38,719 nucleotides of DNA from positions 1-38,719 of the forward strand of contig NZ_CAJQQI010000100.1 of the NCBI RefSeq assembly GCF_905480415.1, given 5' to 3'. A program made the position numbers and the translations under genes. The notes below the pieces were generated by a model. The model was not told where the DNA came from, made no database searches, and was given only the letters and a program-made list of their open reading frames with translations. Shown here piece by piece: positions 6,118 to 37,386 of this stretch. Positions within the stretch are counted from its first letter, which is position 1; each line of letters begins with the position of its first letter. Source of the DNA: an uncultured Algibacter sp. GTDB lineage: Bacteria > Bacteroidota > Bacteroidia > Flavobacteriales > Flavobacteriaceae.

Positions 6118-8040
6118 TTAAAAGTGGTAGCGTTTAAAAGCTTCTATAGCAGCATAATCCGCTAATCCTAAATCATTATATTTTTTACCTGTTAATCTAT
6201 TTCTGTCTTCAACCCGTACCCAAAATTCACGAGAATCTCCGCCTTGGAACATTACTCCATCTTTTTGAGATTGGTGATAAAATATAGCATGGCGCTTTTT
6301 CAGTACTTGATCTGGACTCATCGGAACTGCCATTTCAATTTGGTAAGATTCCCATTCGTGCCAAGCGCCACGGTAAAGCCAAACCCAACAATCATCCATA
6401 TATTTATTGTGTTTAAGTTTCTCTAATGCTATAAATAAGGCGTCTAAACAGACTTTATGTGTGCCGTGTGGATCGGCTAAATCTCCTGCGGCATAAATTT
6501 GATGTGGTTTTATGTTTTCAATTATACTGCACATGATATGAACGTCATCATCTGAAATATTTTTCTTTTTAATGGTGCCTGTTTCATAAAAAGGCAAGTC
6601 AAGAAAATGAACATTTTCATCATTAAGTCCTAAATATCTTGTAGCTGCCAGTGATTCACTTCGTCTAATTAATCCTTTTAATTGTCGTACTTCATTAGAA
6701 TCAATATCATTATACGTTTTCAGTTTTAGAAAATTGATAATGCTTTCAGTTTCCTCACAATCAGGACATAGCGTTTGAGTGATTTCAGCAAATTTTAATG
6801 CTTCTTCATCTGAAACAGCAATATTACCAGACGTTTGGTAGGCTATATGCACGTCGTGTCCCTGTTCTACTAATCTATCAAAAGTACCACCCATAGAGAT
6901 AACATCGTCATCAGGGTGAGGACTAAATATAATCACACGCTTTTTCGGGATATTGGCTCGCTCTGGTCTGTTAGAATCGTCTGCGTTTGGTTTTCCACCT
7001 GGCCACCCTGTAATAGTATGCTGTAATTTGTTAAACATTTTTATGTTTAAATGGTAAGCAGTTCCTTCCTCAGTAAGAAGACCAGACATACCATTATTGT
7101 TATAATCTTTGTCCGTTAATTTTAAAATAGATTTATTTAAAAGCTCAGAAAGCCAAACTACAGCCTTCAGCTTTAATGATTCGTCCCAAACACAAGAGGT
7201 AACTAACCAAGGTGTTTTTACTCGGGTTAATTCAGAGGATGCGCTCTCGTCTATAATAAATGAGGTGTTGTTGTGATGTTGTAAATAGGTTGCTGGAACT
7301 TCAGAAGTTATTTCGCCTTCAACGGTGTCTTTAAGAATTTCTGCTTTATTAGCCCCCCAACCTAAAAGGACTATGCGTTTTGCACTTAGTACCGTCCCTA
7401 TTCCCATAGTAATGGCTTTTCTTGGTACATTATCAATGCCCAAAAAGGCGGGCGCAGCATCTAAACGTGTAATATGGTCTAAGGTAATGCTTCTTGTCCC
7501 CGAATTAAGATGAGATCCAGGCTCATTAAAACCAACATGACCTGTTCTACCAATACCTAATAATTGAAAATCTAGACCACCTACAGCCTTAATTTTCATT
7601 TCGTAATCAATACAGGATTGGTATAAATCTTCACTACTAACCTTTCCATTTGGTATGTTGATGTTTTCTGGCAAAATATCAATATGATTAAAAAGGTGTT
7701 CGTGCATGAAATAAAAATAACTTTGAATGTTATTCTTATCCATAGGGTAGTACTCATCTAAGTTGAATGTGATAACGTTTGCAAAGCTTAATCCTTCTTC
7801 TTTGTGGATTCTAATGAGCTCTTCATAAACTTTTATAGGAGATGAGCCTGTTGCTAAACCTAAAACACAAGGTTTATTTTGACTTTCTTTTTCCCTAATC
7901 AAATCGGCAATTTCATCAGCTACAAGAATTGAAGCCTCGTTTGAATTCTTGAAAATAATGTTGTGTATTTTTTCAAAACGAGTGTCTTCAAACTTTCCTG
8001 CTTGTGTGTAAGCTATATTTTTATGACTTGCAATTTTCAC
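6118..8040 (-). CDS. nagB: Glucosamine-6-phosphate deaminase fused to a PIG-L/LmbE-type deacetylase domain
   Basis: A 640-residue two-domain protein, against about 266 for E. coli NagB. Residues ~30-300 are NagB: the phosphate loop GLATGSSPIKVYEEL, the catalytic region FNLDEYYPM (D95) and GIGRTGHVGFNEPGS (ring-opening H168, E173). The Asp two residues before that His in E. coli NagB is Thr166 here. Residues ~365-560 are a PIG-L (LmbE) domain with the zinc motif SPHPDDD (H375, D377, D378) and a downstream HGTH motif. The first domain converts glucosamine-6-P to fructose-6-P and ammonia. The second could remove the acetyl group from GlcNAc-6-P, which would explain why no nagA is seen nearby; that is inference. 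The fusion itself is common in Bacteroidota. No signal peptide; cytoplasmic. Confidence 0.93.
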   Translation of the reverse strand: MKIASHKNIAYTQAGKFEDTRFEKIHNIIFKNSNEASILVADEIADLIREKESQNKPCVLGLATGSSPIKVYEELIRIHKEEGLSFANVITFNLDEYYPMDKNNIQSYFYFMHEHLFNHIDILPENINIPNGKVSSEDLYQSCIDYEMKIKAVGGLDFQLLGIGRTGHVGFNEPGSHLNSGTRSITLDHITRLDAAPAFLGIDNVPRKAITMGIGTVLSAKRIVLLGWGANKAEILKDTVEGEITSEVPATYLQHHNNTSFIIDESASSELTRVKTPWLVTSCVWDESLKLKAVVWLSELLNKSILKLTDKDYNNNGMSGLLTEEGTAYHLNIKMFNKLQHTITGWPGGKPNADDSNRPERANIPKKRVIIFSPHPDDDVISMGGTFDRLVEQGHDVHIAYQTSGNIAVSDEEALKFAEITQTLCPDCEETESIINFLKLKTYNDIDSNEVRQLKGLIRRSESLAATRYLGLNDENVHFLDLPFYETGTIKKKNISDDDVHIMCSIIENIKPHQIYAAGDLADPHGTHKVCLDALFIALEKLKHNKYMDDCWVWLYRGAWHEWESYQIEMAVPMSPDQVLKKRHAIFYHQSQKDGVMFQGGDSREFWVRVEDRNRLTGKKYNDLGLADYAAIEAFKRYHF

Positions 8041-26983: not shown

Positions 26984-27592
26984 ATGGCTTTCGAATTACC
27001 AAAATTAGGATATGCTTATGATGCCTTAGAACCTCATATAGATGCAAGAACCATGGAGATACATCATTCTAAACATCACCAAGGATACACAAATAATTTA
27101 AATAACGCTATTGCAGGAACAGATTTAGAAGGGAAATCTATTGATGATATTCTTGGAAATTTAGATATGAATAATAGTGCTGTTAGAAATAACGGTGGCG
27201 GATTTTATAATCATTCTTTGTTCTGGGAGGTTATGAATCCAGAAGATAGAGGTTATCTGTCTGGTGATTTAAAAGACGCTATTGAGGCTGCTTATGGTTC
27301 AAAAGATGAATTTATACAAGCTTTTTCAAATGCAGCAGGAACACGTTTTGGTTCTGGTTGGGCATGGTTGTGTGTGCACAAAGGAGGTAAAGTAGAAATT
27401 TGTTCAACGCCAAATCAGGATAATCCATTAATGCCAGGAGTAAGTTGTGGTGGTACACCAATTTTAGGACTTGATGTTTGGGAGCACGCATACTATTTAA
27501 ATTATCAAAATAGGCGTCCAGATTACATTAAGGCATTTTTTAATGTCGTTAACTGGAATGAAATGGAAAAGCGTTACGCAGAAGCTAAATAA
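26984..27592 (+). CDS. sodA: Superoxide dismutase, manganese type
   Basis: A 202-residue Fe/Mn superoxide dismutase, full length. Metal ligands are H27 (MEIHHSKHH), H77 ([10 protein letters not shown]), D164 and H168 ([11 protein letters not shown]). The glycine-rich NNGGG before FYNH and the Gln in [11 protein letters not shown] match E. coli MnSOD rather than FeSOD, in which the active-site Gln sits in the first domain; manganese use is therefore likely but not proven. There is no signal peptide, so it acts on superoxide in the cytoplasm. A monocistronic unit, with a -7 box before it and an intrinsic terminator after it. Confidence 0.94.
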
Positions 27593-27649: not shown

Positions 27650-27801
27650 GCGTTACCCAAAGGTCGGGCTCTACACTATATCTTTTCTTATGCTAAATTT
27701 GTATCCGGATCTCATCAAGTATTTAAATTATAAGATGATTTATGTTTAGATTGAGTTGTTTTGTAAGCATAAAAAAAGGATGCCGTTTCTATCCCTAACG
27801 C
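27650..27801 (+). repeat. Dispersed foldable repeat, copy A
   Basis: The 152-bp element begins GCGTTACCC and ends CCCTAACGC, with inverted termini GCGTTA/TAACGC. The first 37 bp match copy B (37186-37222) at 34 positions. The right arm shares AAAAGGATGCCGTT with copy B. An inner stem joins ATCTTTTCTTATGC to GCATAAAAAAAGGAT and closes a 73-nt AT-rich apical region. It starts 2 bp after the T-run of the sodA terminator. Confidence 0.75.
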
Positions 27802-27876
27802 GATAATTATTATTTTTAAGAAAAACGCATTACCAATAAATGGGTACTCCCATTTTTTTAGAAAGTATATAAAATG

Positions 27877-27944
27877 AAAAAGGTGAACGTTAGTTCACCT
27901 TTTTGCCCCAAATCTACCATAAACTTAACCTACTTATGTTATGG
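27877..27944 (-). ncRNA. Candidate small RNA, copy 1
   Basis: Read on the minus strand, about 68 nt starting CCATAACATAAGTAGG. The 5' part can pair CCATAA with TTATGG. The 3' part is a perfect 12-bp hairpin (GGTGAAC/GTTCACC plus A/T pairs, loop TAAC) ending in five T, a good terminator. A -7-like box TATATTTG lies 5 nt upstream (27957-27950), which puts the start at the first base of the unit. No -33 box or open frame is seen. The 40-nt core (27905-27944) is 39/40 identical to copy 2. Confidence 0.5.
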
Positions 27945-28087
27945 TTTTTCAAATATATGGTAGCGATATTGTTTGATAAAATATTTTAGATAAACTACGC
28001 AAATATTGGCTTAAAAGAAATTGTGTTAGCTAATTAGGGTAAAGTGTAAACACATATAATCAAATTAATTAGGAAACTAAATTGCAT

Positions 28088-28159
28088 AAAAAAAGGCGAA
28101 CAGATGTTCACCTTTTTTTGCCCCAAATCTACCATGAACTTAACCTACTTATGTTATGG
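28088..28159 (-). ncRNA. Candidate small RNA, copy 2
   Basis: Same layout as copy 1: 40-nt core (28120-28159) followed by a terminator hairpin with seven A/T pairs at its base. One stem base differs: on the minus strand GGTGAAC pairs with GTTCGCC through a U-G wobble, whereas the plus strand would have a C-A mismatch. That favours a minus-strand RNA. A -7-like box TAAATTGG sits at the same 5-nt distance as in copy 1. It lies about 116 bp after the purF-like stop codon and could also be part of that gene's 3' region. Confidence 0.5.
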
Positions 28160-28274
28160 TGAGACCAATTTATACGTAATTTAAATATTTTGACTATTTT
28201 TTAGGTGAACTGCGTTTTTTTTGGGTGAAATGCAAATATTACAGTTTTTACTTATAAAATTATTGATTTCATAA

Positions 28275-30173
28275 TTAATAGGCACGTTCATTATTGCCTT
28301 CGTAAAAGTTGATAAACGCACGATTTACAACTCTATTCCCGCCAACAGTTGGATAGTTTCCCGTAAAATACCAATCGCCCAAATGCTCAGGACAAGCTTT
28401 ATGTAAATTTTCTACAGGTTGAAAAATAATTTTCACTTCTGCCTTTATTGATTCATCACTCAACAACTCTGAAATTTTATCTGATATTTCTTCGGCTGTA
28501 AAAGGGTCATATATTTCTTTTACAAAATTTTGTACGTGCTTATCTTCCAAATCTGTTTGCGTTACACACTTATCATAAACCTCTTTTACAATATCATATT
28601 TGCCAGAATCTTTTAGTAATTCTAAAGCTGCTTTAAAAGCAACTAAGCTTTCAAGGTTTGCCATATCAATGCCATAACAATCTGGATATCGTATTTGTGG
28701 CGCAGAAGACACCACAATTATTTTTTTAGGATTTAAACGATCTAGCATTTTTAAGATACTCATTTTTAAAGTTGTACCTCTAACGATACTATCATCAATA
28801 ATAACTAGATTATCGGTAGGTTTAATAACACCATAGGTTACATCATAAACGTGTGCTACTAAATCATCTCTACTGCTATCTTCGGTAATAAAGGTTCTAA
28901 GTTTAACATCTTTAATAGCTATTTTTTCAACTCTCGCGTGCTCAGATAATATCTCGGTAACTTTTGCTGCCGATAATGATCGTTGTCCATTTAAAATAGC
29001 TGCTGTTTTAGTTTTATTTATAAAAGCCTCAGCAGTTTCAATCATTCCAAAAAACGATGTTTCTGCGGTATTAGGAATATACGAGAACACTGTATTTTTT
29101 GTGTCATTATCAATCGCTTCAAGTACTTTAGGCATTAATAATTTACCTAACATTTTACGTTCTTGATATATTTCTGCATCACTACCTCTAGAGAAATAGA
29201 TGCGTTCAAAAGAACAAGACTTTCTTGCTAAAGGTTCTAATATTTGTTTAAGTCTAACTTCTCCTGAATGTTTAGTAATAATGGCTTGTCCAGGTTCTAA
29301 TTCTTTAACGTCTTCAAATTTCACATTGAAAACTGTTTGAATCACGGGTCGTTCAGAAGCTACAACAACTACTTCATCATCCTTATAATAAAAAGCGGGT
29401 CTAATTCCAGCAGGGTCTCTCAAAACAAAAGAATCCCCATGTCCAATAAGTCCGGCCATAGCATAACCACCATCCCAATTTTTTGCAGCTCGCCTTAAGA
29501 TTTTAGCCACTTTTAAACGCTCAGCAATAAGCGGTGATGCCTGCTGTTTATTATAGCCTTCTTTTTTTAAGTCTTTATATATTTTACTCACTGCATCATC
29601 AAGAAAATGACCAATTTTCTCCATTATAGTAATGGTGTCAGTATATTCTTTAGGGTGCTGTCCTAATTCTATAAGGTTACTAAAAAGTTCTTTAACATTG
29701 GTCATGTTAAAGTTTCCAGCCATAATTAAATTTCTATGCATCCAGTTGTTTTGCCTTAAAAAAGGATGAACACTTTCTACGCTATTTTTTCCGAAAGTTC
29801 CGTAGCGAACATGACCTAATAAAACTTCTCCTATGTACGGGATATTCTTTTTTTGTGCAGCAACGTCCTCTTTGTACTCTGGGTGCGTTTCAAATTCTTT
29901 ATTAACTCTATCGTTAATTTGTGCGAAAATATCTTGAATGGGTTGTTGTGCTATTGAACGAACTCTACTTATGTAACGTTGACCAGGTTCAGTATCTAAT
30001 TTTATACTAGCAAAACCAGCACCGTCTTGACCTCGGTTATGTTGTTTTTCCATCAATAAATACATTTTATTCACACCATAAAATGCACTGCCATATTTTT
30101 CTTTATAAAACTCAAGCGGTTTTAAAAGTCTAATCATTGCTATTCCACATTCGTGTTTTAAGACATCGCTCAT
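28275..30173 (-). CDS. PurF-like class II glutamine amidotransferase/phosphoribosyltransferase
   Basis: A 632-residue protein, clearly longer than E. coli PurF (505). The N-terminus MSDVLKHECGIA would be processed to expose nucleophile Cys9. The Ntn amidotransferase part has EKQHNRGQDGAGFAS, LLGHVRYGTFG and AGNFNMTN. The phosphoribosyltransferase part has the PRPP loop LVIIDDSIVRGTTLK and the segment RTFITEDSSRDDLVAHVYDV. Canonical PurF would make phosphoribosylamine, the first step of purine synthesis. Several PurF hallmarks are altered (RGSD where PurF has RPDS; IPNTAETSFFG where PurF has a PDSG motif), so it may be a paralogue. Own unit after the pfkB terminator. Confidence 0.85.
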   Translation of the reverse strand: MSDVLKHECGIAMIRLLKPLEFYKEKYGSAFYGVNKMYLLMEKQHNRGQDGAGFASIKLDTEPGQRYISRVRSIAQQPIQDIFAQINDRVNKEFETHPEYKEDVAAQKKNIPYIGEVLLGHVRYGTFGKNSVESVHPFLRQNNWMHRNLIMAGNFNMTNVKELFSNLIELGQHPKEYTDTITIMEKIGHFLDDAVSKIYKDLKKEGYNKQQASPLIAERLKVAKILRRAAKNWDGGYAMAGLIGHGDSFVLRDPAGIRPAFYYKDDEVVVVASERPVIQTVFNVKFEDVKELEPGQAIITKHSGEVRLKQILEPLARKSCSFERIYFSRGSDAEIYQERKMLGKLLMPKVLEAIDNDTKNTVFSYIPNTAETSFFGMIETAEAFINKTKTAAILNGQRSLSAAKVTEILSEHARVEKIAIKDVKLRTFITEDSSRDDLVAHVYDVTYGVIKPTDNLVIIDDSIVRGTTLKMSILKMLDRLNPKKIIVVSSAPQIRYPDCYGIDMANLESLVAFKAALELLKDSGKYDIVKEVYDKCVTQTDLEDKHVQNFVKEIYDPFTAEEISDKISELLSDESIKAEVKIIFQPVENLHKACPEHLGDWYFTGNYPTVGGNRVVNRAFINFYEGNNERAY

Positions 30174-37183: not shown

Positions 37184-37288
37184 GGGCGTTACCTAAAGGT
37201 CGGGCTTTGCACTATATCTTTTAAATAGAAAAAACTGCCCAAAAGCAGTTTTTTCTATTTAAAAGGATGCCGTTGCAATCGCTAACAC
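37184..37288 (+). repeat. Dispersed foldable repeat, copy B
   Basis: A 105-bp element beginning GGGCGTTACC and ending GCTAACAC. The left arm matches copy A at 34 of 37 positions. At its centre TTTTAAATAGAAAAAACTGC (37219-37238) and its exact reverse complement (37245-37264) form a 20-bp perfect stem with a 6-nt loop CCAAAA. Outside this, ATC pairs with GAT past one bulged G. The central sequence is unrelated to that of copy A although both are complementary. It may also terminate pyk transcription, since a T-rich run lies in the second arm. Confidence 0.75.
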
Positions 37289-37386
37289 ACTTGTACACTA
37301 ACTTATATTTTAAAACAGAAGTTATTTTATTTTTGGAGAAGTTCGTTTAGTAGGTTGATGTAATACACACGCCAAAATATCGGGAG

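Follow-up and report, generated by a model that had tools for sequence, protein, structure and literature searches.

The 38,719-nt stretch of DNA analysed here (the window) carries two short, nearly identical intergenic units on the minus strand, each ~70 nt long; both lie in the 682 bp that separate a superoxide dismutase gene from a purF-like gene. Based on the names of the loci retrieved with the purF-like protein, the window belongs to the Flavobacteriaceae, with Algibacter luteus as the nearest match (94%). The purF-like gene scores 125.8 bits against the NCBIfam purF model, which is below the cut-off of 350. The features of the locus are listed below.

26984-27592, plus strand: Fe/Mn superoxide dismutase gene, convergent syntenic neighbour
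27877-27944, minus strand: predicted sRNA unit 1, the distal copy (UUUAUGG variant), with predicted 5' hairpin, linker and terminator
27877-27904, minus strand: terminator hairpin of unit 1, found by a simple terminator scan
27905-27944, minus strand: 40-nt core of unit 1, holding the loop segment CAUAAGUAGGUUAAG and the linker UAGAUUUGGGG
27950-27957, minus strand: predicted -7 promoter box TATATTTG of unit 1, ending 5 nt before the core, at a position conserved in 224 units
27984-27989, minus strand: CTAAAA upstream element of unit 1, at about -45
28088-28159, minus strand: predicted sRNA unit 2, the copy nearest the purF-like gene (UUCAUGG variant)
28088-28119, minus strand: terminator hairpin of unit 2, missed by the simple terminator scan
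28120-28159, minus strand: 40-nt core of unit 2
28165-28172, minus strand: predicted -7 promoter box TAAATTGG of unit 2, ending 5 nt before the core, with one change from the consensus
28199-28204, minus strand: CTAAAA upstream element of unit 2, at about -45
28275-30173, minus strand: gene for a purF-like class II glutamine amidotransferase (632 aa; Pfam GATase_6 and GATase_7), upstream syntenic neighbour

The initial annotation had described this pair from the letters of the window, and its description of the anatomy held. The two cores differ at 1 of 40 positions and lie 215 bp apart, the -7-like boxes (27957-27950 and 28172-28165) end at exactly 5 nt from them, and a terminator hairpin lies 3' of each core. 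The stems differ at a single position, which reads T/G on the minus strand and A/C on the plus, in agreement with the claim made there. The accompanying statement that the flanking DNA has diverged is correct in part; divergence is not complete, as the CTAAAA element ~45 nt before each predicted start is common to both units and recurs across the taxonomic family in a profile of 224 units. This element may be an activator site or may resemble an UP element.

The flavobacterial sigma-A consensus TAnnTTTG is placed at -12 to -5 in PMC9723704; the boxes fit this consensus and spacing, that of unit 2 with one change, so the predicted transcription start is the 5' edge of the core. A clear -33 TTTG box did not appear in the profile of 224 units, and a sigma-70 promoter scan returned no excess of matches (3 found versus 4.1 expected). 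The simple terminator scan found only the terminator of unit 1 (1 found versus 0.4 expected). Based on folding predictions, the strand of the units is not settled: predicted energies are -18.8 and -20.5 kcal/mol on the minus strand and -19.7 and -17.3 kcal/mol on the plus strand, and the folding z-scores are more negative for the plus strand.

A DNA search covering 10 genomes of the genus identified the twin in every one, with a divergent second copy in genome G003 and as many as six copies in genome G010. Across 100 sampled genomes of the Flavobacteriaceae, 80 had a match to the sRNA at E 0.001 or better. We then used a covariance model (R1), built from 45 diverse units and containing 4 pairs, which makes it nearly a sequence model. 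This search, which the initial annotation had suggested as a check, returned strong matches (E < 1e-10) in 26 of 30 Flavobacteriaceae genomes versus 0 of 166 genomes from other families of the order; weak matches of at most 28.5 bits occurred in 16 of those 166. When R1 was applied to 295 genomes of the class, strong matches were found in 6 of 9 Flavobacteriaceae genomes and in 0 of the 286 others, 25 of which had weak matches of at most 34.6 bits. Among the matches outside the family (up to 34.6 bits), no core was apparent by eye in the 15 loci viewed. The window units match R1 at 27872-27945 (unit 1, 89.3 bits) and 28085-28160 (unit 2, 90.8 bits), both being part of the model's own alignment.

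The genomic context of the matches, also put forward for checking, proved to be conserved. In 65 of 80 named loci, units follow the purF-like gene and share its strand; one of the loci, L050 of Algibacter luteus, has two units. Several of the 15 loci without units in this place are short. The genera with this arrangement include Algibacter, Tamlana, Winogradskyella, Zobellia, Maribacter, Aquimarina and Flavobacterium, and the superoxide dismutase is present in the flanks of 66 of the 80 loci. In two loci (L120 and L121, around 6897-7021), the purF-like gene is followed immediately by the dismutase and the units are absent; these are naturally empty sites. Tandem arrays are common: 64 loci have between one and five distinct units, and 46 of them carry 2-5 copies. 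The distance from the purF-like stop codon to the first sRNA start has a median of 106.5 nt (62 loci, range 81-334), and the spacing between copies has a median of 205 nt (84 spacings, range 146-2568).

A gapless alignment of 224 distinct units showed the box positions T, A, T and T at 88, 88, 97 and 94%, with the last G at 75%, and a CCAT at the predicted start conserved at 93-98%; the pattern used for selection included neither the box nor the CCAT. Invariance of the core is partly by construction, because most of the near-invariant core was in the selection pattern. All 224 units keep a terminator stem with 11 or more pairs (median 13, counting G-U), built from 70 different 5' arms; the arms were counted unit by unit, and MAFFT with RNAalifold gave no useful terminator consensus. 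Folding predicts a 5' hairpin (CCAUAAC..GUUYAUGG) in 28 of 34 distinct 5' regions. No covariation supports this hairpin, the stem of which hardly varies, and the pair -7/+12 is standard in only 45%. One variant of the core, AAGAUUUGGGG, has an extra A; this insertion, together with differences in the A-runs, shifts the frames, so no reading frame is shared through the core. Within arrays, UUUAUGG occurs in the last copy of 39 of 46, and UUCAUGG in the first copy of 28 of 46. The fixed spacing of the box, the CCAT start, a stem kept despite sequence change, a fixed place and a family-wide spread agree with the earlier proposal that core and hairpin are under selection. The same comparative evidence backs the proposal that the units are minus-strand small RNAs, from which we infer their transcription.

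We next consider candidate targets, which the initial annotation did not mention. In all 10 congeners, the best non-self match to the core is one locus (opposite strand), the leader of a conserved ORF of ~42 aa.

G000:C146:33509-33634: ~42-aa ORF (L314 and relatives), with no Pfam or NCBIfam match and the pattern N-L-P..L-T-K-K-x-F-M-L

The leader lies 3' of a CoA-transferase gene and has its own TATATTAG-like box; its site, CCCCAAATCTACCATAAACTT, ends ~8 nt before the ATG of the 42-aa ORF, and a second site, CAAATCTACC, lies inside codons 5-8. The ORF ends in a terminator-like repeat common to a convergent ABC transporter gene. In congener G003, a site-like stretch is kept and the ORF is lost. 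Weak extra matches in the congeners correspond to the antisense strand of the peptide leader, and their reading as a third sRNA copy was rejected.

Of 30 peptide loci, 26 were aligned, leaving out L330 (incomplete), L340 and L341 (both within long frames) and L343 (out of register). The 26 leaders were found through the protein; they contain 39 sites with at least 12 of 15 matches versus 0.235 expected from 200 dinucleotide shuffles of each, although the genomes are related and the site counts overstate independence. There are up to three sites per leader, and in 24 of the 26 leaders a site starts 26-31 nt before the aligned first codon. The predicted duplex of unit 1 with the G000 peptide leader has an energy of -41.9 kcal/mol, whereas 300 shuffles had a mean of -20.6, a standard deviation of 2.9 and a minimum of -30.6; the duplex with unit 2 has -40.6 kcal/mol. 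As a control within the window, the best of 24 ORF starts chosen from 33 listed ORFs reached -23.3 with either unit.

The frame is open over 39-43 codons in every one of the 26 aligned members. When the 10 closest peptide genes are compared in 45 pairs, changes across codons 13-38 fall at 404 third, 247 first and 101 second positions, and codon differences comprise 314 non-synonymous and 251 synonymous, which indicates moderate constraint on the protein; the ORF thus looks coding. Codons 6-8 have zero substitutions in these 10 genes, synonymous ones included, which is what an added constraint at the RNA level would cause. There were no NCBIfam matches among the 26 members, and the only Pfam matches, each in a single member, were at E 0.16. 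The peptide has a net charge of 0 to +6, is mostly cationic and is low in mean hydrophobicity. Its C-terminal 22 residues are amphipathic (moment 0.34-0.55, a value reached by at most 8% of 500 shuffles in 25 of 26 members); with this C-terminus and charge, the predicted peptide may have a membrane role or be toxic.

At E about 0.01, the peptide was found in 26 of the 100 Flavobacteriaceae genomes, and a limit of E 1 raised the number to 50. It occurs in 26 of the 80 genomes with an sRNA match versus 0 of the 20 without (Fisher p = 0.0011); p becomes 0.008 if genome G032 is placed in the group without the sRNA, since its single weak match may in fact come from the target. This set of 26 genomes differs slightly from the 26 aligned members, in that it includes G032 and leaves out G075. 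Eight more distant relatives of the peptide come mostly from lineages with the AAGAUUUGGGG seed, and by eye four of them keep CCAAATC upstream. Among genomes with the sRNA, neither 12 of Flavobacterium (best E 0.03) nor two of Salinimicrobium had a credible match to the peptide, so the peptide cannot explain the sRNA everywhere; in Flavobacterium, either other targets must exist or the peptide must be unrecognisable.

A second candidate target is a lipoprotein with a CAP domain (Pfam CAP, E 3.6e-8 in G008), the leader of which reads CCAAATCTAAATAAACTTAACCT-ATG in that genome. The CAP leaders contain a two-part site that ends at the AUG; they end in ACTTAACCT-ATG or TTACCTACTT-ATG, and both endings are complementary to the sRNA loop segment. 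A protein search gave 32 matches in 20 genomes, and we analysed 21 of these (the best per genome and one second match), using unit 1 of the window for every genome and 60 shuffles each. The duplex z-score was -2.0 or below in 13 of the 21 rows and weak (-1.6 to -1.8) in four; the four rows without a signal were those of G003, G053 and G088 and a partial match in G001.

We searched 16 genomes for the two-part pattern (CAAATCT, 4-20 nt, WACYTATG). It occurred at 69 places, 32 of which are sRNA genes read backwards, and the reversed pattern had 26 matches in the same genomes. Known starts account for 19 of the other 37 places (6 peptide, 11 CAP and 2 SH3); the 17 peptide and CAP matches confirm rather than discover, as the pattern was drawn up after those leaders were known. 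The remaining 18 places are away from named starts, and in the eight of these that were viewed there was no long frame at the ATG except one of 50 codons. The only new start found with the pattern is that of an SH3-domain-like secreted protein in two congeners, where the two-part site also ends at the ATG; the SH3 match to Pfam (24.9 bits) comes from one of the two orthologues and is below the cut-off of 27.

G008:C2:134702 (L457): start of SH3-like candidate target
G009:C11:763 (L458): start of SH3-like candidate target

One-mismatch matches to the core pattern and 20 further places were mostly coding or scattered sites, and no SusC leader was among the complementary sites inspected.

The sequence features expected of a trans-acting, start-blocking sRNA are present: each unit's own promoter and terminator signals, a conserved seed and conserved complementary sites at starts. 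We consider it likely that the units encode a trans-acting sRNA, present in tandem and in several copies, which prevents translation from being initiated, where transcription, pairing in the cell and repression are what we infer from these features. Each unit would be a separate gene for an sRNA of ~70 nt, having a promoter of its own and an intrinsic terminator. The predicted 5' hairpin would contain CAUAAGUAGGUUAAG in its upper part, followed by the linker UAGAUUUGGGG, predicted to be mostly single-stranded, and last by the terminator. The loop and linker are complementary to the target mRNA from about -30 to the AUG; the sRNA would cover the start region, and ribosome binding would then be blocked. 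A steric block of initiation is the most likely mode of action, because the loop and linker face both halves of the site and the complement of the loop ends in the start codon. The sRNA probably turns down translation of the messages for the ~42-aa peptide and the secreted lipoprotein; the candidate targets with conserved sites are these two and, less surely, the SH3-domain secreted protein. Tandem copies may raise the dose and split the targets. UUUAUGG matches the CCAUAAA of the peptide leader, whereas UUCAUGG would match CCAUGAA, a start-codon context; based on these differing complements and the order of the variants within arrays, our guess is that there is a division of labour among the copies.

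Four other explanations bear on this evidence. The peptide mRNA could be mainly a sponge that soaks up the sRNA, with the CAP lipoprotein, secreted proteins and perhaps outer-membrane transporters as the real targets. Up to three sites in one leader would suit a sponge, as would the site-like stretch that G003 keeps after losing the ORF, the wide occurrence of the sRNA where the peptide was not found, and the larger number of non-synonymous than synonymous codon differences. We regard this explanation as doubtful, given that all 26 members keep the open frame, that change in the 10 closest genes is biased to third positions, and that the distance between the main site and the start hardly varies, which fits a translation block. 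The sRNA and a membrane-active peptide could instead form a trans-encoded pair resembling a type I toxin-antitoxin system. In the IstR-1/TisB pair, a short sRNA with its own promoter opposes the mRNA of a small amphipathic peptide, and the present system would share these traits; here, however, the sRNA is multicopy, is unlinked to the peptide gene and has a further conserved predicted target, and toxicity is conjecture. The size (~42 aa), charge and amphipathic C-terminus of the peptide, the very strong predicted pairing at its start and its occurrence only in genomes with an sRNA match are consistent with such a pair. Typical type I toxins are single-span, unlike a peptide of such low mean hydrophobicity. 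The peptide also matches no known family, the sRNA commonly occurs without it, and the CAP lipoprotein is a further conserved candidate target, so we consider a toxin-antitoxin role quite unlikely.

The two explanations that deny the units a trans-acting role are less probable still. The location on the same strand as the purF-like gene in 65 loci, with the first start at a median of 106.5 nt past its stop, is what would be expected of a cis-acting 3' UTR or attenuator of that gene, processed or read through; yet a separate box and a conserved start accompany every copy, the named loci contain as many as five distinct copies and G010 six, and there is strong complementarity to unlinked leaders, all of which makes a purely cis-acting element very improbable. 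That the units are a repeat family (a decayed mobile element or protein-binding DNA) that only resembles RNA is scarcely credible: they are indeed repeated, intergenic and tandem, but they hold a fixed genomic place over many genera, two core patterns had no exact match in viral contigs, and stem-preserving change, a box at fixed spacing and sites in mRNA leaders would not be expected of such repeats.

An Rfam scan of the units identified no family at its cut-off. Sub-threshold matches (STnc40, STnc320, MicX and the like) were set aside, as they align mainly through the terminator. The initial annotation had named Flavo-1 (RF01705) for comparison; this identity was rejected, as neither unit matches Flavo-1, which differs in sequence and place. 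Flavo-1 itself does match the window above its gathering score at 27658-27806 and 37194-37290 (both minus strand), the first of these just downstream of unit 1. We found no published description of the sRNA family in a literature search whose reach stopped short of supplements and most subscription papers, and the listed text matches to core strings have titles on other subjects.

The closest resemblance, also absent from the initial annotation, is to FopS (family of paralogous sRNAs, RF04319), which PMC11697453 describes from Bacteroides thetaiotaomicron together with GibS. According to that paper, FopS RNAs bind close to the start codon and thereby repress SusC-like transporters. Both groups are short and multicopy (in our case two copies in the window, six in G010 and 1-5 distinct units in 64 loci), with a TAnnTTTG-type box and a terminator, and FopS is reported to act near the start codon of envelope-protein mRNAs; a further, possible likeness is that the seed contains UUCAUGGUA..AGAUUU. 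FopS RNAs are also characterized by RbpB binding and repression of SusC-type mRNAs, and by a single-stranded 5' seed followed by a terminator. In the present units the terminator is present, whereas the 5' region is predicted by folding to form a hairpin. This extra 5' hairpin, the AGUAGGUUAAG segment and the other predicted targets set the units apart from FopS, as does their tandem arrangement at one locus, the FopS copies being dispersed.

Against the FopS model (gathering score 56 bits), unit 2 scored 20.6-21.0 bits and the second copy of G003 25.2 bits. FopS exceeded its cut-off in 0 of 15 genomes (the window's own and relatives) and in 4 of 149 genomes of the class, none of which was among the four Flavobacteriaceae genomes of that sample. 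Local alignment to two FopS 5' ends gave p values of 0.54-0.58 for unit 1, 0.09-0.11 for unit 2 and 0.014-0.016 for the AAGAUUUGGGG variant, a likeness of seeds that is non-significant, weak and modest, respectively. We viewed 16 of 30 loci with FopS-model matches in the genus and order: the G003 match is a unit of the present sRNA family, those in G013 are FopS-like, and the rest resemble terminators or chance. The best reading is therefore an sRNA family with predicted start-codon targets that is FopS-like in its predicted action and is not filed as FopS, because its scores are far under the Rfam cut-off.

Genome G013, from another family of the same order, has FopS-like candidate sRNAs at about 255-520 in L151, including a tandem pair, and at about 1500-1570 in L160 and L175. 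They have a seed of the type UUCAURGUA(A)-AUUU-GGG and a terminator, and their seeds are between those of FopS and the present units; unlike the latter, they have no CCAUAAC..AGUAGG 5' part, and they exceed the cut-off of no named family. L160, which was retrieved with the FopS model, aligned to the present units with p values of 0.001-0.07. The low p value of L151 (0.0003 with unit 2) is circular, as that locus was retrieved with a pattern from the present core.

In Flavobacterium psychrophilum, 85 new Rfp RNAs have been reported; PMC9723704 describes Rfp18 as pairing via its third stem-loop, and its loss as lowering two metalloprotease mRNAs. Conservation among flavobacteria, strong predicted structure and a link to secreted-protein genes are common to the present units and to Rfp18 and other Rfp sRNAs. 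Rfp18 has three stem-loops and the present unit two; as the Rfp RNAs were compared through that text's descriptions only, another Rfp may be identical to the present sRNA.

What emerges is one sRNA family, widely conserved at one place, together with precise predicted target sites and a small protein that is undescribed. Through this family, post-transcriptional control in the group would become directly testable, and it offers a case of co-evolving seed and site. It also bears on a possible ancient origin of start-codon sRNAs of the FopS type within Bacteroidota. In a broader reading, which we think unlikely as a whole, tandem and functionally diversified two-seed sRNAs covering start codons would form a circuit throughout the Flavobacteriaceae, would control envelope lipoproteins and the undescribed amphipathic peptide of ~42 aa (perhaps in a toxin-antitoxin-like pair encoded in trans), and would represent the flavobacterial branch of an ancient FopS-like superfamily in Bacteroidota.

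Beside unit 2, at 28199-28232 of the window, a T-run together with the stretches GGTGAAC and GGGTGAA has the look of a decayed terminator like those of the units.
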